This document shows positions 1,737-24,395 of a DNA stretch of 34,042 nt, one piece after another. The stretch covers positions 1 through 34,042 of the forward strand of contig JABDQW010000225.1 of the NCBI GenBank assembly GCA_013042055.1, read 5' to 3'. Both the position numbers and the translations under genes were made by a program. Within the stretch, counting starts at the first letter, position 1; the number at the start of each line of letters is the position of its first letter. The notes beneath the pieces are model-generated. The model was not told the DNA's origin and did not search any database. It was given only the letters and a program-made list of their open reading frames with translations. The DNA is from Gammaproteobacteria bacterium. GTDB taxonomy: Bacteria > Pseudomonadota > Gammaproteobacteria > SZUA-229.

Positions 1737-3173
1737 TTGCCGACCGTAAATGAGAACACACTAATCGAGCGGGGCCAGCTGCAAAGAATGGAAGGTCTAA
1801 TTCGCTATTCCAAAGTACTGGCGATCGTCGGTGATATTCTGCAGGTGCAAGTACCCGAAGCGACCGCGGCGACGGCTGCAGCCGTTCGTTTTAACGATCT
1901 GGCAATGATCGATCAGGACGATGGCCACAAATCACTCGCTCAGGTGATCAATATCGTCCGCGACGTGGTATCGCTGCAGATCTTCAGCGGCACCAAGGGC
2001 ATCTCGACGTCAGCCAGGGTGACCTTTCTCGGTCACCCAATGCAAACCACCTATTCGCCGAATATCCTCGGCCGTGTTTTTAACGGCACCGGCGAGCCGA
2101 TGGATGCCGGCCCCGATCTGTCGATGGATCCCAAAGTCGACATCGGCGGTCCGACGGTCAACCCCGTCGAGCGTATCGTACCGAGCAAGATGATCCGCAC
2201 CGATGTGCCGATGATCGATATCTTTAACTCGCTGGTTGAGAGTCAGAAGATACCCATTTTTTCTGTGTCTGGTGAGCCCTTTAATCAATTTTTAGCGCGT
2301 ATCGGTATACAGGCCGATGCCGATATCGTTGTCTTCGGCGGCCTCGGCCTGATCTTCGATGACTATTACCTGTTCCGTAAAACATTCGAGGACGCTGGCG
2401 TGTTTTCGCGTACCGTGATGTTTGTCAATCAGGCCTCCGACCCGATCGTCGAGCGGCTGTTGGTACCGGACATGGCATTGGCCGTAGCCGAACGTTTTGC
2501 GGTGGAAGAGGGCAAGCGTGTGCTGGTCTTGCTAACCGATATGACAGCCTTTGCTGATGCGTTGAAGGAAGTTGGCATCTCGATGGAACGTGTTCCATCG
2601 AACCGCGGCTATATGGGCGATCTCTACTCACAGCTCGCGCGTCGTTACGAGAAGGCGTGCGACTACGCCAAGGGGGGGTCGGTAACGATCCTGACCGTGA
2701 CCACGATGCCGGGTAATGATGTCACGCACCCGGTACCGGATAATACAGGCTATATTACCGAGGGCCAATTCTATTTGCACGATGGCGTGATCGATCCATT
2801 TGGCTCGTTGTCACGACTGAAACAAAACGTGATTGGCAAGGTCACGCGTGAAGACCATGGTCAGATCATGAATGCCATGGTTCGATTCTATGCTGGCGGT
2901 CGTGATGCCGAGCAAAAACAGGCTATGGCCTTCGAACTATCGGAATATGACCACCAGCTGTTGAAGTTCAGCAAACTGTTCCGCCAGCGGTTTATGGACA
3001 TCAATGTATCCCTGCCGTTGGAGCAGGCACTGGATTTGTGTTGGACAACGCTCGCCGAGTGTTTTCAAGCAGAACAACTGTTAATGAAGCAGGAGTTAAT
3101 TGAAAAATACTTCCCAAAAGATAGCCAAGTGATGTCCGTTAAGATGGCACAAGCGAGTGACAACGATGGCTAG
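1737..3173 (+). CDS. atpB: V/A-type ATP synthase subunit B
   Basis: V-ATPase B features: NGTGEPMD, PSKMIRTDVPMIDIFNSLVESQKIPIFSVSGEPFNQ, LTDMTAFADALKEV, RGYMGDLYSQLARRYE; TTG start possible. Confidence 0.95.
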   Translation: MPTVNENTLIERGQLQRMEGLIRYSKVLAIVGDILQVQVPEATAATAAAVRFNDLAMIDQDDGHKSLAQVINIVRDVVSLQIFSGTKGISTSARVTFLGHPMQTTYSPNILGRVFNGTGEPMDAGPDLSMDPKVDIGGPTVNPVERIVPSKMIRTDVPMIDIFNSLVESQKIPIFSVSGEPFNQFLARIGIQADADIVVFGGLGLIFDDYYLFRKTFEDAGVFSRTVMFVNQASDPIVERLLVPDMALAVAERFAVEEGKRVLVLLTDMTAFADALKEVGISMERVPSNRGYMGDLYSQLARRYEKACDYAKGGSVTILTVTTMPGNDVTHPVPDNTGYITEGQFYLHDGVIDPFGSLSRLKQNVIGKVTREDHGQIMNAMVRFYAGGRDAEQKQAMAFELSEYDHQLLKFSKLFRQRFMDINVSLPLEQALDLCWTTLAECFQAEQLLMKQELIEKYFPKDSQVMSVKMAQASDNDG

Positions 3174-3771
3174 ATTGCAGCTCAGTAAATCCGCGTTGTC
3201 GCGCGAACAAAGAAATCTGAAAACCTACCAACGGTTCTTGCCATCGCTGGATCTGAAACGCCAACAGGTGATGGCCGAACGCAACAAAGCGGCCCATCAG
3301 CTGGTAAGGACGCGGCAGGAAATCGATGTGCAGCGCCAGGCGGCGGGTGATACCATTCCGATGATGGCCAATCGCGACGTTGATCTCGCCGGTCTGGCCA
3401 AGGTGAGCGATGTTCGCCTCGGTGTTGAAAATGTTGTTGGTACACGCTTGCCGGCGCTGGAGTCCGTCTCCGTTCAGGTACACGATTACCCAATGATGGG
3501 CAAACCATTCTGGGTCGATTCTGCTGCGCAAATACTGTGCCGAATACTCGAATTGCGCGTTCGCGCTCAGGTTGAGGAGCGCCGACTTGCCCTGCTGGAA
3601 CAGGCGGTCAAGACCATCACCCAGCGCGTCAACCTGTTCGACAAGGTGCTGATACCGCAAGCTCAGCGGAATATTAAACGCATAAAGATCTATCTGTCCG
3701 ACCTCGAAACCGCTGCTGTGGTGCGCTCAAAAATTTCCAAGCGCAAGCGTGCTGATGCGGAGGGCGTATGA
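3166..3771 (+). CDS. atpD: V/A-type ATP synthase subunit D
   Basis: Coiled-coil protein MARLQLSKSALSREQRNLKTYQRFLPSLDLKRQQVMAER...RVNLFDKVLIPQAQRNIKRIKIYLSD; ATG at 3166 overlaps the atpB 3' end. Confidence 0.92.
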   Translation: MARLQLSKSALSREQRNLKTYQRFLPSLDLKRQQVMAERNKAAHQLVRTRQEIDVQRQAAGDTIPMMANRDVDLAGLAKVSDVRLGVENVVGTRLPALESVSVQVHDYPMMGKPFWVDSAAQILCRILELRVRAQVEERRLALLEQAVKTITQRVNLFDKVLIPQAQRNIKRIKIYLSDLETAAVVRSKISKRKRADAEGV

Positions 3772-5567
3772 GCATCGCGCGTTTGAAAAAGGTCACGGTG
3801 TGCGGTCTGTTGACCGAGAAGCAGAAGCTATTGCAAGGACTACAGGCGCTGGGTTGCATGCACCTGTTGGCTCTGCGGCCGGCGCCGGCAGAAGTGGAGA
3901 AGGCAGCCACACCGAGAGCCGAAGCCGCGTATCGGGCGTTGCGTTTTCTCTCCGATATGCCGGAGAAACGCAAGCAAGTGACGCGCGATCCGAGCTTTGA
4001 TGTCAGCAGCGTGGTTCAGCAAGCCCTCGATGTCAAAGATCGCCTGCGTGACGCCACTGACCGCAATGAATTCTTACGTCATCGCATCGAACAGATCAAG
4101 CCGTGGGGCGATATTGCTTTTCCACCATTAGCTGAACTGGCGCATCAGCGGCTTTGGTTTTACATCCTGCCGATCAGGAAGCTCGGCGCCCTTGAAGCGG
4201 TCGAACTACCCTGGCAAATCGTCAAGCGAGACCAGCGGCAGGTGTATGTGGTCGTGATCGCTGAGCACGAGCCCCCCGCCGATTTACTGCCGGTACCCCG
4301 TACCTATACCGGTGCATTGCCGTTGAATGAATTAAAGGCGCAACTCGAAGACAATGAGATCGAGATCGAAGACATTGTTGCCGAGCGCTACGCGTTAACG
4401 CGTTATATTTATCTGCTGAGCGTGAATCTTGCTGAGGCCGAAAACCGCGCGTCGCTGATCTACGCGGATCAGCAAACCCGTGATGAAGCCGGTATCACTG
4501 CGATACAGGCCTGGGTACCGGAGGACGCGATCAAAGCCGTCGAGGCGTACGTCGAACAGGCGGGCCTGGCTTGTCTGATCGAGGACCCCGACGCCAACGA
4601 TGATCCTCCGACCATGATCGAGCAACCCGACGAGATGAAGGCCGGTGTCGATCTGGCGATGTTTTACACCGTTCCGCCCTACCGTAGCTGGGACCCATCC
4701 GTCGTGCTGTCGTTTTCGTTCGCGTTGTTTTTTGCAATGATTATTTCCGACGCTGGCTATGGCTTGGTGTTGATGATCTTGTTGTTGGCTTACTGGCAGC
4801 GGCTAGGCAAGAGCGCGCAAGGTCGCGCCTACCGACTGTTGGGCGCATCGTTGTTCGGTACTGCTGTTGTCTACGGCGTGCTAGTGGGCAGCTATTTTGG
4901 TGTCACGCCGCCGGATGACAGTTTGTTGGGGCGCATGCACCTGCTCGATATCGGTGACTACGCGGCGATGATGAAGATATCAATCATCATCGGTGTTCTG
5001 CACCTGGTGCTGGCGAACGCACTGGTGGCGCTGCAAAACCGAGGCCGTTCCAAGGCCATCGCCAACCTGGGGTGGATCGCGTGCCTGTGCGGTGGTGTGT
5101 TGCTGGCTTATTCCGAACCCGACAGTGGTCTGGCATCGGTTGCTCTGGCGCTGCTGATTAGCGGATTGGGTACAGTCTTGCTGTTTACCAGCGAACGGCC
5201 GATCGTCAAGCTGCCGGTTGACGTTGTCTGGCGCTTGGTCGACGGTCTCAGGGCGCTGACCGGCGTCATGGGGCTATTCGGCGATGTGCTAAGCTACATG
5301 CGGCTATTCGCACTGGGATTGGCAAGCGCCTCGCTGGCACTGACGTTCAACAACCTGGCGACACAGATCGTCGATGCGGTGCCTGGACTCGGATTGCTGC
5401 TTGCACTGCTGCTGTTACTGCTGGGCCATACGATCAATCTCGCACTGGCAGTGATGAGCGGCGTAGTGCACGGTCTCAGACTCAACTTCATCGAATTTTA
5501 CAAATGGGGTATGACTGGCGAAGGCAAGCCCTTCCAGAAATTTGCCCGCAAAGAGGTGGAACCATGA
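3768..5567 (+). CDS. atpI: V/A-type ATP synthase subunit I
   Basis: Soluble N-terminal half plus multi-TM C-terminal half with FGDVLSYMRLFALGLASASLA (SYxRLxALGLA); ATGA overlap with D. Confidence 0.95.
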   Translation: MSIARLKKVTVCGLLTEKQKLLQGLQALGCMHLLALRPAPAEVEKAATPRAEAAYRALRFLSDMPEKRKQVTRDPSFDVSSVVQQALDVKDRLRDATDRNEFLRHRIEQIKPWGDIAFPPLAELAHQRLWFYILPIRKLGALEAVELPWQIVKRDQRQVYVVVIAEHEPPADLLPVPRTYTGALPLNELKAQLEDNEIEIEDIVAERYALTRYIYLLSVNLAEAENRASLIYADQQTRDEAGITAIQAWVPEDAIKAVEAYVEQAGLACLIEDPDANDDPPTMIEQPDEMKAGVDLAMFYTVPPYRSWDPSVVLSFSFALFFAMIISDAGYGLVLMILLLAYWQRLGKSAQGRAYRLLGASLFGTAVVYGVLVGSYFGVTPPDDSLLGRMHLLDIGDYAAMMKISIIIGVLHLVLANALVALQNRGRSKAIANLGWIACLCGGVLLAYSEPDSGLASVALALLISGLGTVLLFTSERPIVKLPVDVVWRLVDGLRALTGVMGLFGDVLSYMRLFALGLASASLALTFNNLATQIVDAVPGLGLLLALLLLLLGHTINLALAVMSGVVHGLRLNFIEFYKWGMTGEGKPFQKFARKEVEP

Positions 5568-6022
5568 ATGAAATCGCGTTGGCCTTGGGCTGGATCGGCA
5601 TCTATTCGCCGATGGCAATTGGAGCGATCGGCAGTTCGATCGGTTGTGCCATTGCCGGTCAGGCAGGCATCGGAGCCATGCTCGAAACGGAGGGCGGCTA
5701 TGGACGTTACATCGGCTTGTCTGCCTTTCCATCGTCGTTTGTGATCTACGGTATCGTGATCATGTTCACGTTGAATCGGGAGGTGACCGCCGAAAACGCG
5801 GGTGCCTTATTTGGCATCGGCCTGTTCGCTGGACTTGCGCTGCTGTTTGCAGGGATTTGGCAGGGCCGTGCCTGTGCGTCGGCGATCAATGCGGCTAAAG
5901 AAAAACCCGAGATCTTCGGTCTATCGCTCGCCCCGGCCGCCATCATCGAGGGTTTTGCGGTATTTGCCTTTGTGTTTGCGTTGGTGGTCAGTGCGGACAT
6001 CCCGGCAGGAGGTGGTTCCTGA
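5564..6022 (+). CDS. atpK: V/A-type ATP synthase subunit K (c-ring, four TM helices)
   Basis: MNEIALALGWIGIYSPMAIGAIGSSIGCAIAGQAGIGAMLE... with single intramembrane Glu in APAAIIEGFAVFAF; ATG at 5564 is the more likely start than 5504. Confidence 0.92.
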   Translation: MNEIALALGWIGIYSPMAIGAIGSSIGCAIAGQAGIGAMLETEGGYGRYIGLSAFPSSFVIYGIVIMFTLNREVTAENAGALFGIGLFAGLALLFAGIWQGRACASAINAAKEKPEIFGLSLAPAAIIEGFAVFAFVFALVVSADIPAGGGS

Positions 6023-6717
6023 TGACGGATGCCGTCAATCGATCAGTGCCGCCCTCACAAGGCATCGATGCACTGATAGCCCGGCTGCGCGAACAGGGGG
6101 TTTCGGCGGGACGTGAAGAGGGTGAGAAAATCGTCGCGGAAGCCAGGGCCATGGCTAAGCAAATCGTCGATAGCGCTAAAGAAGAGGCGAAGGAGCAGCT
6201 ACAATCTGCGCACAAGCAAGCGGAGGCGTTCCAGTCGGCGGGCGTCGCTGCAATCCAGATGGCGATGCGCGACACCATCCTCGATCTCAAGTCGCAATTG
6301 ATGCAACAATTTAGCTCGGACGTCAGGCGACTCGTCTCTCGCAGCCTGACTGATGAAGCGTTGCTCCGGCAGATGATCCTGGAAGTGGCCGGTCGCGCAC
6401 GTGAGAGTACGGACGCCGCTGATTCGCAGCAAATGGACGTCGTGTTACCCGCACAGGTGGTCGGACTGGATGAGCTGCGCAACAATCCGGATGACTTACG
6501 CCGGGGCAGGCTGACCCATTTCGTTCTGGGCCTGTCGGACGATATCTTGCGTCGTGGCGTAACGTTTTCGGTTTCGGATCAACATGAATGCGGTATCCGC
6601 ATCCGACTGGTAGACAAAGACATCAGCTTGGAGTTGACTGATGAAGCCATTGCCGCGCTATTGTTGGATCATTTGCAGCCACGTTTTCGCGCCATTCTGG
6701 AAGGCATCGTGAAATGA
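6022..6717 (+). CDS. atpE: V/A-type ATP synthase subunit E
   Basis: Charged helical N-terminus (EEGEKIVAEARAMAKQIVDSAKEEAKEQLQSAHKQAE); TGATG overlap with subunit K; operon position. Confidence 0.8.
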   Translation: MTDAVNRSVPPSQGIDALIARLREQGVSAGREEGEKIVAEARAMAKQIVDSAKEEAKEQLQSAHKQAEAFQSAGVAAIQMAMRDTILDLKSQLMQQFSSDVRRLVSRSLTDEALLRQMILEVAGRARESTDAADSQQMDVVLPAQVVGLDELRNNPDDLRRGRLTHFVLGLSDDILRRGVTFSVSDQHECGIRIRLVDKDISLELTDEAIAALLLDHLQPRFRAILEGIVK

Positions 6718-6744
6718 TCGTTAGCCCGCATTTTCGCAGTCACC

Positions 6745-7449
6745 ATGGGTGATGCGAACGCATATGTGATGCTGATCACGGGCCTGCCCAGGCCCGAGGC
6801 TCTGTTCCGTGCAAAACGGCCACCGCTGTCGCGCCTGAAGCTGAATCGTCGCCTCCGTGTGTTGGCGCCTGACGATGCCGAAACGCTCGAGCGTGTCGAA
6901 CAGATATTGACCTGGGCTTCGATGCCGATGTCGATGACCGATGCGCAGTTTGTCGCTTCGGTCCGTGCCGCGATGCAGACGATAAACAACGAGACCTTGC
7001 GCCTGATCGTTCGCGACCGGCTCGAAATCCGCACCTGCATAGCGGCCTTGCGCCGTCGCCTCCGTGGTGAAGGGCGGCCGTCACCGAATAACGTGTGGGG
7101 TTATGGTCGTTGGCGTGAACATATCAGACGCAACTGGAGCGAAACCAGTTTTCGACTGGACAACGTTTTTCCGTGGCTGCGGGAAGCCGATAGACTGCTA
7201 CGTGCGGGTGACAGCCTGGCGATGCAACGACTGCTACTCGATTTGGTCTGGAAAAATGTCAACCGTCATGTAGGTGAGCACGAGTTCGATTTCGAAGCTG
7301 TCGTCATCTACGTGCTTAAATGGGACATCGTCGATCGCTGGGTCAGGCATGACAGCGGCTTGGCCACCGAACGCTGCGATGAACTGAGCGAATCCGGTTT
7401 GGGCGAATTCGCGAATCTGTTTCAGCATCAGCAGTATCAGTCGAACTAG
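6745..7449 (+). CDS. DUF2764-family V-ATPase-associated protein (putative subunit C-like)
   Basis: Occupies the position between E and A; LRAGDSLAMQRLLLDLVWKNVNRHVGEHEFDFEAVVIYVLKWDIVDRW is typical of the small protein in Chlamydia/Bacteroidetes-type V-ATPase operons. Confidence 0.75.
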   Translation: MGDANAYVMLITGLPRPEALFRAKRPPLSRLKLNRRLRVLAPDDAETLERVEQILTWASMPMSMTDAQFVASVRAAMQTINNETLRLIVRDRLEIRTCIAALRRRLRGEGRPSPNNVWGYGRWREHIRRNWSETSFRLDNVFPWLREADRLLRAGDSLAMQRLLLDLVWKNVNRHVGEHEFDFEAVVIYVLKWDIVDRWVRHDSGLATERCDELSESGLGEFANLFQHQQYQSN

Positions 7450-7694
7450 CCCGCATTTCTCACCAGGCGGCGTAGAAAACTGCTAAGGCATTGGCGATTT
7501 GGAGAAAAGTTAGGATGTTCACAAATTCAGTGTGTAATTCAAGCGTGCCTATCACGGTTCAGGCTGGTCTTCGTGTCCGTAAGCTTGCTCTTCACTCAAA
7601 CCGTAGCCATTGCTACGCTTTTCGCTCCAGAGCGGCGCTTGCGAACACGAATCCTGCGCCTGCTCCCGTGATCCTGGTGAGAAATGCGGGCTAG
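7446..7694. repeat. 249-bp element with 22-bp perfect terminal inverted repeats (family B)
   Basis: CTAGCCCGCATTTCTCACCAGG at 7446-7467 and its exact reverse complement at 7673-7694; internal hairpin CGTAGC-CATT-GCTACG. Confidence 0.85.
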
Positions 7695-7739
7695 ATATGC
7701 GCCATTGGTACCCAGACTACAATATAGCGGGGATTGGCA

Positions 7740-9614
7740 ATGAGCCCTATTAATCCAAAGGCGACGGCGCGCGTCGTAGCGGTTCAGGATGATCTGGTTA
7801 AAATCGAGGCATTGTCTGATGCTGACGGCGATCCCGCCGAGCTGATTAAGAACGAGGTTATATATATTTGTCCTGCCGAGCTCAACGCCCTCGGCGAGCA
7901 GGAACGGCTCAAAGCGGAGGTGTTGCGTGTTCAAGGGATGACGGCCGATGCGCAGGTTTATGAGAGCACCGCGGGTGTGGCCGTTGGCGATGCCGTCGAG
8001 CAGAGTGGTGAAATGCTGTCGGTTTCGCTCGGGCCCGGCTTGTTGGGGCAGGTATACGACGGGTTACAAAATCCGCTGTATGAACTTGCCACGCACTATG
8101 GTGTTTTTTTACCTCGTGGCGTCGCTAAAGATGCGCTCGATCAGAAGAATAAATGGTCCTTCGTCACCACGGTCAGCAGTGGTGCGCGAGTCGTTGCCGG
8201 TGACACGCTAGGGACGGTCCAGGAAGGTCGGTATACGCACAAGATCATGGTGCCGTTTGGTTGGGTCGGCGAGTTCAAAGTGTCGTGGATCCAGGAGGGT
8301 ACATTCTCAGTCCGAGAGATCATCGCGCGCCTGGAAGACGACACCGGTCGCGAATATGACATTCGGCTCGCACAGAACTGGCCGGTACGCCGCCCACTGA
8401 CTGGTCAGCTGCTACGCAAACGTGCCTCGACGCGGCTCTATCCGGAGGAACCATTGCTGACCAGCCAGCGCGTGATTGATACCTTCTTCCCAGTCGCACG
8501 CGGTGGTACCGCTTGTATTCCCGGGCCGTTTGGCGCCGGCAAAACCGTGCTGCAAAATATGATCTCACGCCATTCCGCGGTCGATATGGTGATTGTCGTC
8601 GCCTGCGGTGAGCGCGCCGGCGAGGTCGTCGAGACCATCACCGAGTTTCCGAAAATGAGCGATCCGAAAAGCGGCGGTTCGCTGATGGACAGAACCATCA
8701 TTATCTGTAACACGTCTTCGATGCCGGTAGCTGCCAGGGAAGCCTCGATTTACACCGGTATTACACTGGGCGAGTATTACCGGCAGATGGGCTATGACGT
8801 GCTGTTGATCGCCGACTCGACGTCGCGGTGGGCACAAGCCATGCGCGAAACAGCGGGTCGATTGGAGGAGATCCCAGGTGAAGAGGGCTTCCCGGCGTAT
8901 CTGCAATCGTCGATCAAGGGTGTCTACGAACGTGCCGGCGTGGTTCAGACCAACGATGGCTCGACCGGCAGTCTGACGATCATCGGAACGGTCTCGCCAG
9001 CGGGTGGAAATTTCGATGAGCCGGTGACGCAGGCAACGTTGTCGACAGTCAAAGACTTTCTCGGTTTGTCCGCCGAACGCGCCTACAAACGGTTCTACCC
9101 CGCGGTCGACCCGCTGCTGTCGTGGTCGCGTTATTCGGCCCAACTCGAGGCCTGGTTCGACAACAACGTCGACGCGGGCTGGGCCCGCCGGGTCAATGGC
9201 ATGCAGGAGCTGCTTAGCCAGGGCGAGGCGGTTTCACAGATGATGCAGGTGACGGGTGAAGAGGGCGTTACGTCCCAGGATTACGTCACCTACCAGAAGT
9301 CTTTGTTTCTCGACATGGTGTTTTTGCAGCAAGATTCCTTCGATCCCGTCGATTCAGCGGTTCGCATGGAACGCCAGAAGCTGGCATTCAACCGAGTCCA
9401 CGATCTTGTCACCCGAGACTACCGCTTCGACAGCAAAACGCAGGTGCGCGACTATTTCACCCGACTCACCGGTCTGTTCAAGAATTTCAATTATGCACGA
9501 GAAGACTCGCCCGATTACAAAGCGATGTTGCAACAAATCGACGAGCTGGCCGAATCGGTCAGCTCATACAGCGGAGCGCAGGTCGCGGACGATTCCACTG
9601 GTGACGCGACCTAA
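7740..9614 (+). CDS. atpA: V/A-type ATP synthase catalytic subunit A
   Basis: Walker A GPFGAGKTVLQ, IVVACGERAGEVVETITEFP, LIADSTSRWAQAMRE, EEGFPAYL, GSLTIIGTVSPAGGNFDEPVT; ATG at 7740 (TTG at 7734 alternative). Confidence 0.96.
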   Translation: MSPINPKATARVVAVQDDLVKIEALSDADGDPAELIKNEVIYICPAELNALGEQERLKAEVLRVQGMTADAQVYESTAGVAVGDAVEQSGEMLSVSLGPGLLGQVYDGLQNPLYELATHYGVFLPRGVAKDALDQKNKWSFVTTVSSGARVVAGDTLGTVQEGRYTHKIMVPFGWVGEFKVSWIQEGTFSVREIIARLEDDTGREYDIRLAQNWPVRRPLTGQLLRKRASTRLYPEEPLLTSQRVIDTFFPVARGGTACIPGPFGAGKTVLQNMISRHSAVDMVIVVACGERAGEVVETITEFPKMSDPKSGGSLMDRTIIICNTSSMPVAAREASIYTGITLGEYYRQMGYDVLLIADSTSRWAQAMRETAGRLEEIPGEEGFPAYLQSSIKGVYERAGVVQTNDGSTGSLTIIGTVSPAGGNFDEPVTQATLSTVKDFLGLSAERAYKRFYPAVDPLLSWSRYSAQLEAWFDNNVDAGWARRVNGMQELLSQGEAVSQMMQVTGEEGVTSQDYVTYQKSLFLDMVFLQQDSFDPVDSAVRMERQKLAFNRVHDLVTRDYRFDSKTQVRDYFTRLTGLFKNFNYAREDSPDYKAMLQQIDELAESVSSYSGAQVADDSTGDAT

Positions 9615-11268: not shown

Positions 11269-11952
11269 TCATTTTGCGGCAAGGGCGCGAAAGAAGCGTC
11301 TGGCCTTGCTCGGCGCGCTCGACCAATCGATGCCGGCTTGTTTTAGTAGTTCGATCAGGGCAGCTTGCAAATTAGGTGCGTCATGATCTTCGGAGATTTC
11401 GATTTCAAATTCATGATCGACGACACCATTGGGGAATGTGCTGGTATCGAGCTCAAACACGACGGTCTCCGCGCTCTTGCCGATGGGTATGCTCACCGGC
11501 GGCAGGTAGATGCGCTCATTGGTGAATTCGCCGATGTGAACCAAAGGCGCGTCACCGCAGGCTGAATGCACCATCTGCAGTATGGTGGATGATCCGTTTG
11601 AAAAATGGTGGCGTATGACATGCCGGGGGCAGACGCTTCCTTGCAATAGCGCCAGGGCGGTGGCATTCGGTAACTCGACTTCCTGCTCAGCGCGATCAGA
11701 CAACAAGGTTGTAGGGCTCGCCAGTTGCTCGGCTTTCAGCGTCAGCCTATAGCGTCCCGCTTCCTGCCTGAGTCTGATGGCGTGATGATGATCGCGTAAA
11801 CAGAAGGTCTCGCTATCGAAGAAGTGGTTGATTTGCTTGACGCCGCTGCCGAGCAAGGCGGCCGGGAGATTCAGATATTCGAGCAGTTGACGAAAGCCGT
11901 GTTTGTCAGCTACCGCAAATTTGAATTCAATCTCTCGACCGTGCGCTGACAT
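11269..11952 (-). CDS. CYTH-domain protein (triphosphatase/adenylate-cyclase-like tunnel fold)
   Basis: N-terminal EIEFKFAV (ExExK), FFDSETFCLRDHHHAIRLRQE, FELDTSTFPNGVVDHEFEIEI. Confidence 0.8.
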   Translation of the reverse strand: MSAHGREIEFKFAVADKHGFRQLLEYLNLPAALLGSGVKQINHFFDSETFCLRDHHHAIRLRQEAGRYRLTLKAEQLASPTTLLSDRAEQEVELPNATALALLQGSVCPRHVIRHHFSNGSSTILQMVHSACGDAPLVHIGEFTNERIYLPPVSIPIGKSAETVVFELDTSTFPNGVVDHEFEIEISEDHDAPNLQAALIELLKQAGIDWSSAPSKARRFFRALAAK

Positions 11953-12981: not shown

Positions 12982-15264
12982 ATGGCAAATGTACCGCAGT
13001 CTGACCGCACGGCCACCGACAAAGGACCGGCGTATTCTGAAGCCACACCTGCAACGCAAGAGGCGACAGCGACCAGTGGCAGTAAAAGTCAGGCAGGGGC
13101 ATCGTCTGAAACCGAGTTTGATTTCGATAATGCCGAACTCTATCTCAACCGTGAACTCACCTGGCTGGCTTTCAACGCACGGGTATTGACTATGGCGGAT
13201 AATCCCGATGCGCCATTGCTGGAACGCGTTAAATTTCTTGCGATCATAAGCAGCAATATCGATGAATTCCAGATGAAACGCATCGGTGGGCTCAAGCAGC
13301 AGGTGGCTGCGGGTGTACGCCAACCGGCCGTCGATGGACGCACGCCGGTGGAGCAGATCGCTGCATGCCAGGAGAAGGTCAGAGGTCTGCACAAAGAGCA
13401 GAATAGAATCCTGCGCAAGGTGCTCGGCTTGTTGGCGCAGCGGGGCATACAGATCGTCAAATACCAGTCCCTCACCGAGGAGCAGAAGGAGATCCTACGC
13501 AGAAATTTCATTGAGAATATATTTCCGTTGCTGACGCCATTGGCCATGGACCCTGGACATCCGTTCCCTTTCATCTCCAATCTGGCGTTGAACCTGCTGG
13601 TCACCTTACGCCACAGAGGGGGTACGGTTCCACATATCGCGCGTGTGAAAGTACCCGTCGCCAAGGGTATTGCCCCCCGGTTTGTTCGTGTGGACGACAA
13701 TTACACCTTCGTCGCCCTGGATGATATCGTCATGAATAACCTGGATCTGCTTTTTCCCGGAATGGAGATTGTGTCGTGCGAGCTGTTCAGAGTGACACGC
13801 AACGCCGTCGTGGAGTCCGACGAAGAAGAAGCGGATGATCTACTTCAGATGATCGAGTCTGAACTGCGCCATCGGCATTTTGCGCCGATCGTGCGTTTGC
13901 AAATCGCCAAGGGTATGGACCCGGTCCATCGCGGAATGCTCGCCGCAGAACTCGGCCTTGATGAGGCCAATGATGTTTATGAAGTCGAAGAGATCATGGC
14001 GATGCGTGATCTGTTCGAGATAGCCGGCCTCGATATCCCAGAACTGCACGATCCGCCGCACAAACCGATCGACCATCCCCGCCTGGCACACGATTCGCGG
14101 AATATCTTCCATATAATTCGCGAGCGAGGCTCATTGCTGTTTCAGCACCCTTACGAGTCTTTCACGACCAGTGTCGAGCGTTTTTTGCAAACGGCCAGTA
14201 CGGATCCCAAGGTGCTGGCGATCAAGATGACCCTGTACCGAACATCGGCCGAGGGCGGCATCATCGATGCACTGACCCAGGCTGCGCGTCATGGTAAACA
14301 GGTCGCTGTGTTAGTCGAATTGAAAGCGCGTTTTGACGAGGCTGCCAACATTGGCTGGGCACGCCGTTTGGAACAGTCAGGTATACACGTGACCTACGGC
14401 GTCGTTGGTTTAAAAACACACAGTAAAGTCATTCTGGTCGTACGCAAGGATTACAACAAGTTGCGTCGCTATGCTCATATCGGCACCGGGAACTATCACT
14501 CGGGGACGGCGCGTATGTACAGCGATCTGGGTATGTTTACCTGCGACGAGAAGATCGGTCAGGATCTGACCGAACTGTTTAATTATCTGACGGGATATTC
14601 ACCGCCGCCGACCTATCGCAAAATCCTCGCAGCGCCGTACACCTTGAAACGATCGCTGCTGCACAAGATTGAACGCGAGCAGTCGTTGCACTCGGAAGGA
14701 TCTACCGGTCATATTCAGTTGAAGATGAACGCATTGGAAGATGTCGATATCACCCGCGCGCTCTATAAAGCGGCGCGGGCAGGCGTCAAAATCGATCTTA
14801 TCGTCAGGGACACCTGCCGCATGCGTGCTGGGATACCGGGTCTAAGTGAAAATGTACGCATCATCAGTGTCGTCGGTCGCTTTCTGGAACACACCCGTAT
14901 CTATTATTTTCATAATGGTGGACACGAGGAGTACTATATTGGCTCTGCAGACCTAATGACCCGTAATCTCGAGAGCAGGGTGGAGGTTGTGGCACCCGTG
15001 GACGATGAAAGGTTACGTCAGGAGTTGCGACTGATTCTCGACGTTCAGCTTTCCAGCAAGAAGGATGTTTGGGTGATGCAGCAGGATGGCAGTTATGCGC
15101 CAAAACCCATGCCAGCTGGGGGAGAGCCCGAAAGAAGTTCGCAGGAAACGTTCATTGAACTCGCGCAGAAACGAAAAGCAGCTGCCGCTAAGCATAGACA
15201 GTCAAAACTGCGGGCGAAGCTGCTGACTTACTTCCACAAACGTGTATTGAATGAAGGTTTATGA
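12982..15264 (+). CDS. ppk1: Polyphosphate kinase 1
   Basis: LYLNRELTWLAFNARVL, FLAIISSNIDEFQMKRIGGL, MTLYRTSAEGGIIDAL, GLKTHSKVILVVRKD, RYAHIGTGNYHSGTARMYSDLGMFT, DTCRMRAGIPGLSENV. Confidence 0.97.
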   Translation: MANVPQSDRTATDKGPAYSEATPATQEATATSGSKSQAGASSETEFDFDNAELYLNRELTWLAFNARVLTMADNPDAPLLERVKFLAIISSNIDEFQMKRIGGLKQQVAAGVRQPAVDGRTPVEQIAACQEKVRGLHKEQNRILRKVLGLLAQRGIQIVKYQSLTEEQKEILRRNFIENIFPLLTPLAMDPGHPFPFISNLALNLLVTLRHRGGTVPHIARVKVPVAKGIAPRFVRVDDNYTFVALDDIVMNNLDLLFPGMEIVSCELFRVTRNAVVESDEEEADDLLQMIESELRHRHFAPIVRLQIAKGMDPVHRGMLAAELGLDEANDVYEVEEIMAMRDLFEIAGLDIPELHDPPHKPIDHPRLAHDSRNIFHIIRERGSLLFQHPYESFTTSVERFLQTASTDPKVLAIKMTLYRTSAEGGIIDALTQAARHGKQVAVLVELKARFDEAANIGWARRLEQSGIHVTYGVVGLKTHSKVILVVRKDYNKLRRYAHIGTGNYHSGTARMYSDLGMFTCDEKIGQDLTELFNYLTGYSPPPTYRKILAAPYTLKRSLLHKIEREQSLHSEGSTGHIQLKMNALEDVDITRALYKAARAGVKIDLIVRDTCRMRAGIPGLSENVRIISVVGRFLEHTRIYYFHNGGHEEYYIGSADLMTRNLESRVEVVAPVDDERLRQELRLILDVQLSSKKDVWVMQQDGSYAPKPMPAGGEPERSSQETFIELAQKRKAAAAKHRQSKLRAKLLTYFHKRVLNEGL

Positions 15265-15271
15265 TCGTGCG

Positions 15272-15298
15272 TGCATCATATCATTTTGATATGATGCA
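15272..15298. other. Perfect 12-bp hairpin between ppk1 and the CHAD gene
   Basis: TGCATCATATCA-TTT-TGATATGATGCA; no T-tract follows. Confidence 0.7.
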
Positions 15299-15378: not shown

Positions 15379-16941
15379 GTGAATAATCAGCACGATTTTG
15401 TTGTTCCTTCTGATCAAAGCTTTACGGAGCTGATATCCTCGCTAGCGACGAAATTCCGTGTCCACCGGCAGGCCGAAACGGTCAGTTATAGAATTTTTTA
15501 CGATACGGTTGACTGGCTGTTATCTAACAATGGTTGTGTACTCGAGATGAACGAAGACGAGCAATCACGCAGGATTTACTGGCGCGCGGGTAAGGATGCT
15601 CAATTAAAAATACAGTTGGGACTCAGACAGGCCCCACGCTTTGCGAGCGAGCTGCCGGATTGCGAGTTTCGAAGTCAGTTAGCGTCAATTATTTCGGTAA
15701 GGGAGCTTGCGCCGCGGATCAAGATTAAAATCAAACGTACACCTGTGGTTATGCTTAACAAGAAAGAAAAAGCCATCGTGCGTATTAAACTTGATGAGAA
15801 CTGGTTTTATCCGATGAAAAGACGTGCGGGTTGCCTATTGAGCAAGCGTTTATGGGTTAAGCCGGTAAAGGGTTATGCAGAAGCTAATCAGCAGATTGAC
15901 GCGTTGATGCAAATGATGGATTTGCGTCCAGCACAGGACAACATGCTGAAGTTGGCGCTGGCCGAGTTGGGATCGAGTACCACACAGCATTCGACTAAGC
16001 TCAATCTTATGCTCGATCCCGATATGACGTCTGAAATCGCCTTGAAGGAGATTCTGCTTCGACTGCTGGACATTACCCAGCGAAATACGGCCGGGAGCGT
16101 ACAGGGAACGGATATTGAGTTTATGCATGACTATCGTGTTTCGATCCGCAAAACACGTTCAGCACTTGCATTGATCAAGCACGTTTTGCCGAAGGACACG
16201 ATTAAGAAATACAAAAAGTTTTTCGCGGGACTGGGCAAGTTGACCAATCCTGTCAGAGACAATGATGTTTTTCTTGTTAAACTCGATAACTATAAACAAA
16301 AGCTCGACAAAAACAAGCAAGAGCAGTTACAGCCTTTGCAGCAATATCTTATAGACAATCGATCTGAGGCGCAGAGGCAGTTCATTGAGGAAGTGAAGTC
16401 CCCTGGCTATCGTCAGGCGCTAAAAGAATGGCGAGCATTTTTGGAGGATTCGGCTCTGCTTGATTCCCCGCTCGAGAACACAAATAAACCGGCGTGCCAG
16501 TTGGCTAATCAATTGATCTGGGGCACCTATCAAACGGTGCTGCTGGAAGGCAATGCAATTACTGATGAATCCCCGCCTGAAGCACTGCATGAGCTACGCA
16601 AGTCGTGCAAAAAACTGCGTTACTTGATCGAATTTTTTCAGAGCCTGTACCCTGCCAAAAGGGTTAGAGAACTCATCAATGCATTAAAAGGACTACAGGA
16701 TAACTTGGGCGATTATAATGACTACCATGTTCATATGCAGATCTTGAAGGAGTTTACTGAACAGAGCCCTAATGAAGCTGCAGTCAAGGCGTGCAATAAG
16801 ATGATAAAAGCCCTGAAACAGAAGCAACAGAAAACGCGAAACCATTTTGCAGAGCGGTATGCTGCATTTTCTTCGCATGACAATCAAAATGAGTTCAGGG
16901 AATTATTTGTTGGCTCATTGACGGGTGACAATAACGAATGA
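15379..16941 (+). CDS. CHAD-domain protein with degenerate CYTH-like N-terminus
   Basis: CHAD: FMHDYRVSIRKTRSALALIKHVL and ALHELRKSCKKLRYLIEFFQSLYP...LKGLQDNLGDYNDYHVHM; N-terminus has YRIFYDTVDWLLSNNGCVLEM (CYTH-like) but no ExExK; GTG start. Confidence 0.9.
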   Translation: MNNQHDFVVPSDQSFTELISSLATKFRVHRQAETVSYRIFYDTVDWLLSNNGCVLEMNEDEQSRRIYWRAGKDAQLKIQLGLRQAPRFASELPDCEFRSQLASIISVRELAPRIKIKIKRTPVVMLNKKEKAIVRIKLDENWFYPMKRRAGCLLSKRLWVKPVKGYAEANQQIDALMQMMDLRPAQDNMLKLALAELGSSTTQHSTKLNLMLDPDMTSEIALKEILLRLLDITQRNTAGSVQGTDIEFMHDYRVSIRKTRSALALIKHVLPKDTIKKYKKFFAGLGKLTNPVRDNDVFLVKLDNYKQKLDKNKQEQLQPLQQYLIDNRSEAQRQFIEEVKSPGYRQALKEWRAFLEDSALLDSPLENTNKPACQLANQLIWGTYQTVLLEGNAITDESPPEALHELRKSCKKLRYLIEFFQSLYPAKRVRELINALKGLQDNLGDYNDYHVHMQILKEFTEQSPNEAAVKACNKMIKALKQKQQKTRNHFAERYAAFSSHDNQNEFRELFVGSLTGDNNE

Positions 16942-17693
16942 AGATAATCGCCATTTACAACATCAAAGGTGGTGTTGGTAAGACCGCAGCAGCGGTAAAC
17001 CTTTCCTATCTTGCTGCAATGGACGGTGCAAGGACGCTGATATGGGATCTCGATCCTCAGGGCGCAGCGAGTTATTACTTTCGGATCAAAGCCAAAGTGA
17101 AGGGAGGTGGCCGAAAGCTGGTTGAAGGCAAGAAGGATTTGGATGATGCAGTAAAAGGGACCGATTACGAAAACTTGGATTTATTACCTGCAGATTTCTC
17201 ATACCGGGATATGGATCTGCTTCTGGACAAGACGAAGAAGCCTACACAACGCTTGAGAAAATTGCTCAAACCCATGGCGTACGAATATGACTTCACCTTC
17301 CTGGATTGTCCGCCGAGTATATCTTCAGCTTCCGAAAGCGTTTTCACGGCTGCAGATATATTGCTGGTGCCAACCATTCCGACAACATTGTCGTTGAGAA
17401 CCTACAAGCAAATAAAAAAATTCTTCAAAGACATGGGTTTCGATTCGGCAAAAATACTACCGTTCTTCGCCATGGTCGACCGTAGAAAACAAATGCATCG
17501 GTTGATAGTCGAAAACCCGCCTTCATTCATGCCATCCGCGCTCAACAGTTACATCCCCTATGCCAGTGAGGTGGAGCGTATGGGAGTGCACCGCGCACCC
17601 ATAGCGGATTTTGCAGCAAAAAGTCGCGCTGCCCAGTGTTACCAATCGATGTGGGATGAAGTTAAGACGAAACTATTTCCGCATCACAATTAG
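16938..17693 (+). CDS. Orphan ParA/MinD-family ATPase
   Basis: Deviant Walker A KGGVGKTAAAVNLSYLAA, LIWDLDPQGAASYYF, FTFLDCPPSISSAS; ATGA overlap with CHAD gene; no ParB homologue seen nearby. Confidence 0.92.
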   Translation: MKIIAIYNIKGGVGKTAAAVNLSYLAAMDGARTLIWDLDPQGAASYYFRIKAKVKGGGRKLVEGKKDLDDAVKGTDYENLDLLPADFSYRDMDLLLDKTKKPTQRLRKLLKPMAYEYDFTFLDCPPSISSASESVFTAADILLVPTIPTTLSLRTYKQIKKFFKDMGFDSAKILPFFAMVDRRKQMHRLIVENPPSFMPSALNSYIPYASEVERMGVHRAPIADFAAKSRAAQCYQSMWDEVKTKLFPHHN

Positions 17694-17770: not shown

Positions 17771-19321
17771 TCATTTATCTTCATTCCACTTCTTGACCCT
17801 GGCGTTCAATGTGTTTTCCATCTGATCGCAGACGGTCTTGATAACTTTTACCCGAGCATGGCGCTTATCATTGCCTGCTATTAAATTCCACGGTGCTACT
17901 CTGGTGCTGGTGTGTTCGACGATATCGTTCACCGCAAGCACGTACTCATCCCACTTTTCCCGGTTACGCCAGTCTTCGTCGGTTAGTTTCCATTGCTTGT
18001 GTGGCGTCTCTTCACGTAGCTTGAAGCGTTTATATTGTTCGTCTTTGGTAACGTGGATCCAGAACTTGATAAGCACGATACCACTATCGGCCAACATTTC
18101 TTCGAATGCATTGATTTCGGCGTAGGCGCGACGCCATTCTTCCTCGCTGGCTAAATGTTCCACGCGCTCAACCAATACACGACCGTACCAGCTGCGGTCG
18201 AATATGGTCATTTTCCCTGCTCTGGGTAGATGACGCCAAAAGCGCCATAAGTAATGGTGGGCACGTTCTTCATCAGTGGGTGCTGCAATCGGTAAGACTT
18301 GATATTGCCTGGCGTCCAGCGCAGCGGTCAATCGGCGAATCGCTCCACCTTTACCCGATGCATCCGGACCTTCGAATAGGATGATGGTCGAGATTTTGTG
18401 TTTTCGAGCGTACCGTTGCAACAGATTCACCTTTGCTTGACATGCCTGCAGGTCTTTCGTGTACCGCTTTTTCGTCAAGGACAGCGACATATCCATGACA
18501 TCAAGCACGGTGGTGCTTTTTAGATGCGAAATAGTTTCTGACGCTTCAGTTGCCTCTGCGCCGTCGTCGTCTGAAATATCGTGACCAATGGTGGTAGCGC
18601 TTTCAAATTTATCGAGGTGCTTATTGATCTCATCACGAATAATCGTAGCGACCGTCAGACTTCTGAAGTTGCGATTAGAGCCCTCGACGATACACCAGGG
18701 CGAGACTCCGGTGCTCGATCTCATGATGATGCGTTCTGCCGCTTCTTCGAATTTCTCGTATAAGCGCCAGTTGTCCCAGTCAACTTCCTTGACGCGCCAG
18801 CGGGTGAGTTCATCTTTTTCAAGCTCTCTAAAACGTTTTTTTTGTTCCTTTTTACTCAGGTGCATCCAGAACTTGATGATCAACGCGCCATCATCGGCTA
18901 GGGCTTTCTCGAAATCGATGATGCTATCCAGTAGCTTGTTGAATTCGACGTCGTCGATTAGCCCATGTACACGGTCGAGTACCGGCCTGGAATACCACGA
19001 ACTCAGAAACAGGCCGATACGCCCATACGGCGGCAAATCGCGCCAGAACCGCCAGAACTCCGGTCGTTCGCGTTCCTCGTCTGACGGTTTGTCGTACGCG
19101 CGTGTGACCAGCCATCTTGGATCCATCCATTCATTGAGGAGATTGACAGTCTCACCTTTACCAGCGCCGTTGACACCGGCAATTACGATGATGACCGGGA
19201 ATTTTGATAATTTCAGTACCTTGCGCTGAACTTCCAGCAGTTCCTGCCGCAGTAAAGGTACTCTTTGTTTGAATTCGGATTTTGGGACGCGCTGGCCAAG
19301 CTCAGCAGTTCTGAACATCAT
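17771..19321 (-). CDS. pap: Polyphosphate:AMP phosphotransferase-like tandem PPK2 protein
   Basis: Two PPK2 domains: IVIAGVNGAGKGETVNLLNEWMDPR and ILFEGPDASGKGGAIRRLTAALDARQYQV, each followed by PEFWRFWRDLP/HYLWRFWRHLP and SSWYSRPVL/RSWYGRVLVERVE. Confidence 0.93.
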   Translation of the reverse strand: MMFRTAELGQRVPKSEFKQRVPLLRQELLEVQRKVLKLSKFPVIIVIAGVNGAGKGETVNLLNEWMDPRWLVTRAYDKPSDEERERPEFWRFWRDLPPYGRIGLFLSSWYSRPVLDRVHGLIDDVEFNKLLDSIIDFEKALADDGALIIKFWMHLSKKEQKKRFRELEKDELTRWRVKEVDWDNWRLYEKFEEAAERIIMRSSTGVSPWCIVEGSNRNFRSLTVATIIRDEINKHLDKFESATTIGHDISDDDGAEATEASETISHLKSTTVLDVMDMSLSLTKKRYTKDLQACQAKVNLLQRYARKHKISTIILFEGPDASGKGGAIRRLTAALDARQYQVLPIAAPTDEERAHHYLWRFWRHLPRAGKMTIFDRSWYGRVLVERVEHLASEEEWRRAYAEINAFEEMLADSGIVLIKFWIHVTKDEQYKRFKLREETPHKQWKLTDEDWRNREKWDEYVLAVNDIVEHTSTRVAPWNLIAGNDKRHARVKVIKTVCDQMENTLNARVKKWNEDK

Positions 19322-20953: not shown

Positions 20954-22750
20954 GTGATCAGTGTGAAACGGCTCTGGACTGACCACAATACAACCATTCG
21001 GCTGATACTGGGCCTGCTGCTAGCCGTTTTCACGCACGCTACGCTCGCCGATGAAACCGCACAGCAACAGCAACAGGTCGACTGGTTCTACCTGACGATG
21101 GCGCTGTTGGGCGGTCTGGCCATGTTTCTGTATGGCATGGAACAGATGTCCGACGGGCTGCAATCGGCTGCGGGAGAGAAACTCAAGGATGTTCTCGCTG
21201 GCCTGACCAAGAACCGGTTTCTCGGTGCTCTTACCGGTGCTTTCGTCACTGCCGTTTTGAATTCGTCATCGGTTACCACGGTACTCGTCGTCGGTTTTAT
21301 CTCGGCAGGCTTTATGACGCTGACTCAGTCGGTCGGCATTATCATGGGTGCCAATATCGGTAGTACCTTCACTGCGCAGATCGTTGCGTTCAATGTTACC
21401 CAGTACGCGTTGTTGCTCGTGGCCGTTGGTTTCTTCATGTTGTTTACAGCTAAAACCGAACGCGTCCGGCATTACGGCAGCATGGTCATGGGGCTGGGCC
21501 TGGTGTTCTACGGCATGGGCGTGATGGGTGAGGCCATGAATCCGATGCGGACCTACCAGCCTTTCCTCGATCTGATGATAAGGATGGAGAATCCGATACT
21601 GGGTATCCTGGTGGGTGCGGTGTTCACAGGCCTGGTGCAGTCGTCGGCGGCAACCACCGGTATTGCGATTGTCATGGCAACCGAAGGTCTGATTTCGCTG
21701 CCGGCAGGCATCGCTTTGTCATTCGGCGCCAACATCGGTACTTGCGTTACCGCCTTACTTGCTGCCATTGGCAAACCAGCGGAAGCGGTACGTGCAGCGG
21801 TAGTCCATGTTTCATTTAATATCGCCGGTGTTTTGCTCTGGGTCATGTTCATACCGCAACTGGCAGAGTTCATTGTGCATATCTCGCCATCGTCACCGGA
21901 GCTCAGCGGCAAGGCGCAAATGGCGGCTGATGTGCCTCGTCAGATAGCCAATGCACACACGGTGTTCAATCTGGCCAACACCTTGATATTTATCTGGTTT
22001 ACACCAATGTTTGCCCGGTTCGCCGAATACGTTGTTCGTGAGAAACCGGTCAAAGAGCGAGTCATCGTGAAACCGCGTTACCTAGCTAAGGAGTTGCTCG
22101 AAGTTCCCAGCGTTGCGCTTGAAAATGTACGCTTCGAAATCGGCCATATGGGTGAAATAACCAGCGATATGTTGAAAACCTTGTGGACAGCCTTTCAGCA
22201 GAGGGACCGTGATATGGTCGATGAAGTGATTAAAATGGATGATAAGGTCGATGTGCTGTCAGAGCGGATACTGGAGTATTTGAGTGAGATCCAGCAAGAA
22301 GAATTGACGGACGAGAGCAGCCATGAACTTAAGGCCTTGATGAGTGCAACCATCAATATCGAAAGCCTCGCGGATGTGATTGAGTCCGAACTCTCCGAAA
22401 TATGTAAAAAATATATCGACTATGATTTGCATGAAAGCGATGCCTCTCTCGCATTATTTATCGATTTTTCACAGACGGTTGGTGATACATTTGACAAGCT
22501 GGTTCGCGCCATCAAAAACGATGATGAGAATGCCGCTGCCGAGGTCATAACCGTCAAAGAGCACATCCGCCATGCTGTTGATGAAATCCTGAAGAACCAG
22601 GCGAGCCGTATATCGGTTGAGACCAACAAAGACTTACTGCTGGTTCGGTTGGAGCTGGAACTTGTTGACAAGTTGAGACGCATCTATACGCTAACAAAAC
22701 GCGTCGCGAGAGAGTTTATTCCCAAAGAGCTTGCGCATAAAACGGAGTAG
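20954..22750 (+). CDS. Na/Pi cotransporter family protein with PhoU-like C-terminus
   Basis: Inverted repeat core LNSSSVTTVLVVGFISAGFMTLTQSVGIIMGANIGSTFTAQ and QSSAATTGIAIVMATEGLISLPAGIALSFGANIGTCVTAL; long helical C-terminal domain. Confidence 0.93.
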   Translation: MISVKRLWTDHNTTIRLILGLLLAVFTHATLADETAQQQQQVDWFYLTMALLGGLAMFLYGMEQMSDGLQSAAGEKLKDVLAGLTKNRFLGALTGAFVTAVLNSSSVTTVLVVGFISAGFMTLTQSVGIIMGANIGSTFTAQIVAFNVTQYALLLVAVGFFMLFTAKTERVRHYGSMVMGLGLVFYGMGVMGEAMNPMRTYQPFLDLMIRMENPILGILVGAVFTGLVQSSAATTGIAIVMATEGLISLPAGIALSFGANIGTCVTALLAAIGKPAEAVRAAVVHVSFNIAGVLLWVMFIPQLAEFIVHISPSSPELSGKAQMAADVPRQIANAHTVFNLANTLIFIWFTPMFARFAEYVVREKPVKERVIVKPRYLAKELLEVPSVALENVRFEIGHMGEITSDMLKTLWTAFQQRDRDMVDEVIKMDDKVDVLSERILEYLSEIQQEELTDESSHELKALMSATINIESLADVIESELSEICKKYIDYDLHESDASLALFIDFSQTVGDTFDKLVRAIKNDDENAAAEVITVKEHIRHAVDEILKNQASRISVETNKDLLLVRLELELVDKLRRIYTLTKRVAREFIPKELAHKTE

Positions 22751-23438: not shown

Positions 23439-24395
23439 TCAGAAAAATGGCATCCCAAATACAATACGGTACAGATTTGTATCCCTGGTAATCTGTACGC
23501 CAAATCCAAGACGCGAATTAGACGGAACCCAGCGGTATTCAGGAATACTAAAAGTAAACCCTATTTCATTCTTGTTTTCCAGTGAAATTGGATTATCGAG
23601 CGCTCTAACTAACACCAAATCTTTCAGGTAGTAGTAGTTGATGAAATAAAAGCTGAAATCCATGTAAGATCCATTAATGGTTATATCTGTCGGGATGTTG
23701 TAATCCAGCGCCGTTTCAAACACCGCGAAATTCGAATTTTGACCCGTCTCGGCATTGCGCTGGTCGGCATAAAGGAAGCGGTTGCCTAGAGTCAGTCTGT
23801 CTCTGTGGAAATCAAACGTCAGAAAACTCTTGACACCGGTACCCAGCACTCGGATATTGACATTGTTCACCAGGTCCCTGGCGACGCCAAAGTCGAAGAA
23901 GGGAATCAAGTGCCAGTTATGCCGGGCCGGAAAATGAAACTCGACACCGGGTATGACGCTGATCGTGCCGACATGATCGAGGGTTGGTACGGTGCCACCA
24001 GTAATCTCTTCGAAATTGGCGACACCGAGGGTGACTGGGTAGGTGATGATCCAGCCGGAGTCATTACTCGTCATCGGTCGGAGCGTGGTCGACAGCGGGA
24101 TTCTGAGGATAAACACGTCACCACCACCCGAGGCATAGAAACCGGTGCCAAGGTAGTTGCCAAAGGCAAAATTAATCAGCTCGACATCCGAAGTATCTTC
24201 GCTATGTACCTTGCTCGCAGGCTGGGCGACAGCGAGCACCAGCACCAATACCCATTGCAATCGTATTGTTTGGAACCAGGCAAATTCGCTATTTTTGTTA
24301 CAATTCGCCACAGCTTGTCGTAAAAGCGGGTACATTAAAGTATCGAGAATCAACGAATGAGGCTGAATTGTGTCAATAACTGCAGTATCTCTCAA
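23439..24395 (-). CDS. Exported protein, likely outer-membrane beta-barrel (start uncertain)
   Basis: Signal-like LQWVLVLVLAVAQPASKVHS; alternating aromatic strands (LTLGNRFLYADQ; YMDFSFYFINYYYL; RLGFGVQITRDTNLYRIVFGMPFF) ending in Phe. Confidence 0.55.
   Translation of the reverse strand: MRDTAVIDTIQPHSLILDTLMYPLLRQAVANCNKNSEFAWFQTIRLQWVLVLVLAVAQPASKVHSEDTSDVELINFAFGNYLGTGFYASGGGDVFILRIPLSTTLRPMTSNDSGWIITYPVTLGVANFEEITGGTVPTLDHVGTISVIPGVEFHFPARHNWHLIPFFDFGVARDLVNNVNIRVLGTGVKSFLTFDFHRDRLTLGNRFLYADQRNAETGQNSNFAVFETALDYNIPTDITINGSYMDFSFYFINYYYLKDLVLVRALDNPISLENKNEIGFTFSIPEYRWVPSNSRLGFGVQITRDTNLYRIVFGMPFF

Follow-up and report, generated by a model that had tools for sequence, protein, structure and literature searches.

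Few bacterial inclusions are as common as polyphosphate (polyP) granules, whose placement in the cell is not random. A 2025 review names AlgP of Pseudomonas aeruginosa as the sole polyP spacing factor and gives the use of ATP in granule positioning as unknown (PMC13052382), and a survey of ParA cargos does not mention polyphosphate (PMC10241942). The gene pair described here, which encodes a CHAD protein and a ParA-type ATPase, resembles AlgP in its proposed cargo and in its proposed tie to the nucleoid (compare PhaF, PhaM and PhaH for PHB granules), but AlgP is a single DNA-binding tether for which ATP use is not known, whereas CHAD-ParA comprises two proteins, one of them an ATPase.

Two ParA-based systems offer parallels. 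As in McdAB, an orphan-type ParA is encoded beside a partner that would be bound to the cargo, with the nucleoid as the proposed track, and McdA structures (6nop, 6non) are among the structural matches of the ParA studied here. The partner is, however, a polymer-binding CHAD/TTM-like protein and not McdB, the sequence similarity to McdA is weak, and the recurrent neighbours are CHAD, ppk1, SixA and PPK2 genes in place of McdB and carboxysome genes. The ParABS (Soj/Spo0J) systems share with our ParA the fold and the Walker motifs, and Soj/ParA proteins are its top Foldseek matches, but no ParB is seen at the CHAD-ParA locus, where CHAD is the recurrent neighbour. Unlike plasmid partition ATPases, the CHAD-linked ParA is not as a rule a plasmid gene, with only 11 of 72,556 plasmid records matching its family.

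On the side of the partner, the crystallised CtCHAD (PDB 6QV7/6QVA) is of the same long CHAD type, and a gene identical to it lies in a ppk1-x-CHAD-ParA cluster; the published work treated the isolated domain, and its text mentions no ParA partner. Triphosphatases of the YgiF CYTH-CHAD type have the same architecture of a TTM-like plus a CHAD domain, whereas the ParA-linked proteins lack the ExExK motif and belong to another CHAD clade. The folD-ppk-parA-CHAD neighbourhood of Acidithiobacillus, which is that of our locus, was reported as conserved in 2019 (PMC6416229) and 2024 (PMC10892726); the accessible portions of these two papers label the ParA as a plasmid or chromosome partition protein and the CYTH-CHAD protein as a cyclase or as copper-related, and contain no positioning proposal. 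The gene neighbourhood is therefore not new and the proposed positioning role appears to be, with the qualification that preprints and most of the subscription literature lay beyond our search, so that an earlier report is possible.

The CHAD-ParA locus

The window referred to below is the whole stretch of DNA analysed, 34,042 nucleotides of a gammaproteobacterial contig (JABDQW010000225.1, assembly GCA_013042055.1). Its relevant features are as follows.

1737-9614: upstream cluster of genes for an A/V-type ATPase, namely subunits A and B, the 116-kDa subunit and an E-like subunit
11269-11952, minus strand: stand-alone CYTH protein with intact ExExK motif (EIEFK); PF01928, E = 8e-16; a neighbour kept across the genus
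12982-15264, plus strand: ppk1, polyphosphate kinase 1 (760 aa), upstream of CHAD; TIGR03705, 773 bits, with PF02503 and others
15272-15298, plus strand: 12-bp perfect inverted repeat, an RNA hairpin between ppk1 and CHAD
15379-16941, plus strand: CHAD protein gene (520 aa, GTG start); Pfam CHAD PF05235, E = 6e-55, residues 225-456
16938-16941, plus strand: 4-bp overlap ATGA of the CHAD stop and the ParA start, read from the sequence
16938-17693, plus strand: ParA/MinD-family ATPase gene (251 aa); AAA_31, E = 8.5e-34; deviant Walker A motif KGGVGKT
17771-19321, minus strand: tandem PPK2 (polyphosphate:AMP phosphotransferase), convergent to ParA; TIGR03708, 679 bits
19746-20933: P-loop kinase with an ATP-cone, similar to 2-phosphoglycerate kinase; lies after PPK2 and before the Na/Pi transporter
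20954-22750, plus strand: Na/Pi cotransporter with PhoU domain; PF02690, 4.5e-63, and PF01895
22912-23421, minus strand: SixA-like histidine phosphatase; SixA relatives often lie near the CHAD-ParA pair
23439-24395: 318-aa protein beside SixA, without Pfam match and, by profile search, not a CHAD protein

The first-pass annotation had described a CHAD gene overlapping a ParA gene at ATGA, with ppk1 upstream and a tandem PPK2 alongside, and had called the ParA an orphan. Open reading frames and Pfam/TIGR matches place each of these elements as described, and no ParB, nor any carboxysome gene, was found among the Pfam matches of the window genes scanned. The hairpin in the gap between ppk1 and CHAD gave z-scores between -3.9 and -6.2 in the window and in three relatives of the same genus, its sequence differing among them, and was absent in two other genus members examined; it is probably the ppk1 3' end or an attenuator. 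A consensus scan of this gap returned no sigma-70 promoter, and no known RNA element or tRNA was found in the window.

The CHAD protein and polyphosphate binding

The AF2 model of the window CHAD protein (pLDDT 93.5) has a degenerate N-terminal CYTH/TTM-like domain without ExExK (residues about 1-200) followed by a long-type CHAD domain (about 205-515). Foldseek matched the N-terminal part to TTM/CYTH folds and gave CtCHAD as the best match overall, through the C-terminal part (6qv7/6qva, TMt 0.92-0.93), 6QVA being the complex of CtCHAD with polyP. The polyP contacts of CtCHAD are His253, Arg256, Arg260, Arg296, Arg418 and Tyr419, mutation of which weakens polyP binding (PMC6537752). They correspond to H250, R253, R257, R293, R414 and Y415 of the window protein, and all six are invariant in 51 CHAD sequences. 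Moreover, in one Chlorobiaceae genome the gene directly upstream of ParA encodes a CHAD protein that matches the CtCHAD chain with 100% identity across 315 residues, in the gene order ppk1-x-CHAD-ParA that the window also has, and the published polyP binder therefore belongs to a CHAD-ParA pair. Because an ortholog from the same pair is the solved CtCHAD-polyP complex, the earlier suggestion that CHAD is the polyP-bound component is now strongly supported. Localisation to polyP granules in vivo is known for other CHAD proteins.

The ExExK motif is missing from all 42 long ParA-linked CHAD proteins and present in 9 of 13 long unlinked ones; judged by motif content, the linked protein is unlikely to act as a CYTH cyclase or triphosphatase. 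Several ParA-linked CHAD proteins of ~320 aa have no N-terminal domain at all, and coupling to ParA should therefore reside in the CHAD domain itself. The CtCHAD study reports no binding of nucleic acids by CHAD domains (PMC6537752), so that a granule coated with CHAD would depend on a further factor for reaching the nucleoid. A basic N-terminal peptide is used by other ParA partners (PMC12204374); no obvious disordered peptide of this kind was apparent in the window CHAD protein. In the CHAD tree three linked, short CHAD proteins (L088, L114, L115) fall in a separate clade, so that one ParA family adjoins two CHAD types, which suggests a second recruitment of short CHADs to the same ParA family. 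CHAD proteins of the same clade also exist without ParA beside them, among them another CHAD encoded in the genome from which the window comes (G000:C152:22872-23564, L061).

The ParA ATPase family

The Walker residues of the ATPase (K10, G11, G12, G14, K15, T16, D37, D39 and D123) are invariant in 47 ParA sequences. Foldseek comparison of the AF2 model (pLDDT 93.6) ranked Soj/ParA structures best and McdA next, with query TM values of 0.83-0.89. Phylogenetically the family forms one clade apart from 18 generic ParA proteins (SH-aLRT 100), within which the CHAD-adjacent members are clustered, and it is sharply delimited by sequence: among 58 relatives the family ParAs are 54-81% identical and score at least 283 bits, and all other ParAs score at most 80 bits. 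The median net charge is +7 for the family versus -7 for generic ParA, a value that fits a binder of polyanions and that could reflect polyP and not DNA.

Pairing of ParA with CHAD across genomes

A search of 370 genomes of the window's class, Gammaproteobacteria, with 169 bits or more as the threshold for membership, returned 57 ParA family members in 56 genomes (38 families), and a CHAD gene lies directly upstream on the same strand for 44 of the 57. A CHAD gene occurs somewhere in the genome in 51/56 carriers of the ParA versus 72/314 non-carriers (Fisher 8e-23, relatedness ignored), and ppk1 in 53/56 versus 174/314 (Fisher 1.4e-9, relatedness again ignored). The three carriers without detectable ppk1 (G123, G230 and G315, all of one family) have PPK2 (2 to 5 matches) together with the CHAD-ParA pair; every carrier thus has ppk1 or PPK2, and all 56 should therefore be able to make polyP by gene content. 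The two genes overlap by exactly 4 bp in 24 of 47 related loci, and 36 of another 50 loci would permit such an overlap. One genome (G202; contigs C101 and C269, loci L096 and L097) carries the CHAD-ParA pair twice, and each of the two ParA genes adjoins a CHAD of its own. Distance matrices of ParA and CHAD are correlated (r = 0.70), a value obtained with relatedness uncontrolled that we do not count as proof.

The pairing extends well beyond this class. A scan of named genomes yielded 80 loci of the ParA family, 49 of them with CHAD beside ParA, and CHAD-ParA loci carry the labels Actinomycetota, Acidobacteriota, Chlorobiota, Gemmatimonadota, Myxococcota and Thermodesulfobacteriota as well as Alpha-, Beta- and Gammaproteobacteria; many lie on MAG contigs, so that single taxon labels may be wrong. 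Isolates are represented by Sedimenticola, Thalassobaculum, Rhodothalassium, Oceanospirillum and Paracoccus. Within the Chlorobiaceae 30 of 31 genomes carry the ParA, and CHAD adjoins it in 29 of the 30. Against these frequencies (44/57 in the class, 49/80 over many phyla, 29/30 in Chlorobiaceae), CHAD was found within about 1.5 kb of 0 of 20 generic ParA loci, and the adjacency is accordingly not due to chance. The gene-neighbourhood survey that the first-pass annotation had proposed as a check hence shows clear co-occurrence of this ParA subclade with CHAD and/or ppk genes, and the association with ParB or plasmids that would have spoken against the idea was not found in the generic-locus control and the plasmid records. 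Among the few plasmid matches, the two Paracoccus plasmids inspected carry a CHAD-ParA-CYTH-NUDIX cluster (L226 4484-7651, L227 3473-7249), which on one of them comes after pstB-phoU-phoB.

The genes are apart in Methylococcales, yet a CHAD open frame of ~500-525 aa is present elsewhere in the genome in 8 of 8 cases. No CHAD was detectable in several Chitinophagaceae, a zetaproteobacterium, a Marinobacter and a few gammaproteobacteria that carry the ParA. In genome G180 (L073, 6928-7686), where CHAD is likewise undetectable, ParA starts 7 bp after ppk1. The Chitinophagaceae genomes searched gave no or weak CHAD matches (L180, L191, L195, L199-L201, L204-L206, L209, L212, L217), and their ParA loci have a conserved downstream gene of ~243 aa with a weak Esterase match (PF00756), which is a possible alternative ParA partner. 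Members of the family without CHAD either use another adaptor or indicate that CHAD is not always needed.

Proposed role in granule positioning and alternative readings

A functional coupling of ParA and CHAD is, from these data, close to shown. We propose, with a probability of roughly 0.6, that the pair is a dedicated ParA-type spatial system with the polyphosphate granule as its cargo. In the putative mechanism CHAD, by way of its basic central pore, would coat polyP or dock on it and so serve as the cargo adaptor, and ParA in its ATP dimer form would bind the nucleoid non-specifically. An encounter of ParA with CHAD on the granule would lead to ATP hydrolysis and release, and granules tracking the resulting ParA-ATP gradient would become evenly spaced and be shared out evenly at inheritance. 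We infer the granule positioning itself, the contact of ParA with CHAD, the binding of ParA to DNA and the stimulation of hydrolysis; a conserved pairing of the ParA gene with that of a cargo adaptor, a general trait of ParA cargo positioning, is observed for CHAD-ParA. At a little better than even odds, we would extend the proposal to a widespread and previously unrecognised ATP-driven system for positioning polyP granules in several phyla, with an adaptor that would recognise an inorganic polymer where others recognise DNA or a protein shell. If correct, it would add a new class of cargo to the ParA/MinD family, assign a cargo to many ParA genes whose sole annotation is that of a partition ATPase, and provide CHAD proteins with a cellular role, and it can be tested at once in the organism whose CHAD is crystallised with polyP.

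The main rival is a regulatory role, in which ParA would act as a BcsQ-like local regulator or assembly ATPase that switches CHAD, PPK or granule nucleation without moving the granule. BcsQ is indeed matched by the window ParA in both Pfam and Foldseek, and the position of ParA immediately after ppk1 in a genome with no detectable CHAD, like its occurrence in CHAD-less Chitinophagaceae, is readily accommodated by such a role. Soj/ParA and then McdA nevertheless outrank BcsQ as structural matches, and the strongest and widest linkage of the ParA is to a granule-binding protein and not to an enzyme, so we regard local regulation as unlikely relative to positioning.

Quite improbable, in our estimation, is an arrangement in which polyP and CHAD form a platform that ParA ties to chromosome condensation or segregation in starvation. 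In Caulobacter, where the granules come to lie depends on chromosome segregation (PMC13052382), and the fold of our ParA is nearest to chromosomal Soj, but the scanned genes of the window include no ParB, and the same genomes also have generic ParA genes. Plasmid or chromosome partition proper we reject because no ParB turned up among the window genes scanned and hardly any plasmid records match.

Neighbours can be conserved by co-transcription alone, and with Na/Pi, PPK2 and SixA genes also nearby, the adjacency might reflect mere co-regulation of phosphate genes, ParA serving another, unrelated cargo. The other phosphate genes vary, however, while CHAD-ParA stays (among 63 loci CHAD is a neighbour in 48, ppk1 in 15, SixA in 12 and PPK2 in 7), the 4-bp overlap is frequent, and both genes are kept when unlinked; we give this explanation still less weight. 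Hardly credible is the reading, proposed for Acidithiobacillus in the accessible part of PMC6416229, of the CYTH-CHAD protein as a class IV adenylate cyclase that acts in signalling, with ParA as a bystander, since, for all the CYTH-like fold of the N-terminal domain, ExExK is missing in 42/42 long linked proteins, several linked proteins of ~320 aa lack that domain entirely, and the most constant adjacency is that of CHAD with ParA.

Other observations

No meaningful PADLOC match was obtained that would assign the locus to a defence system, and long frames that resemble natural CHAD-ParA fusions (for example L011, L164 and L173) are taken as open upstream of the start. In three Methylococcales loci with separated genes (L166, L175 and L177) mgtE follows ParA, the L166 product being a Mg2+ transporter by Pfam; Mg2+ is a counter-ion of polyP. 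The ATP-cone/2-phosphoglycerate-kinase-like gene is also kept near PPK2 in two relatives (L063 and L094).
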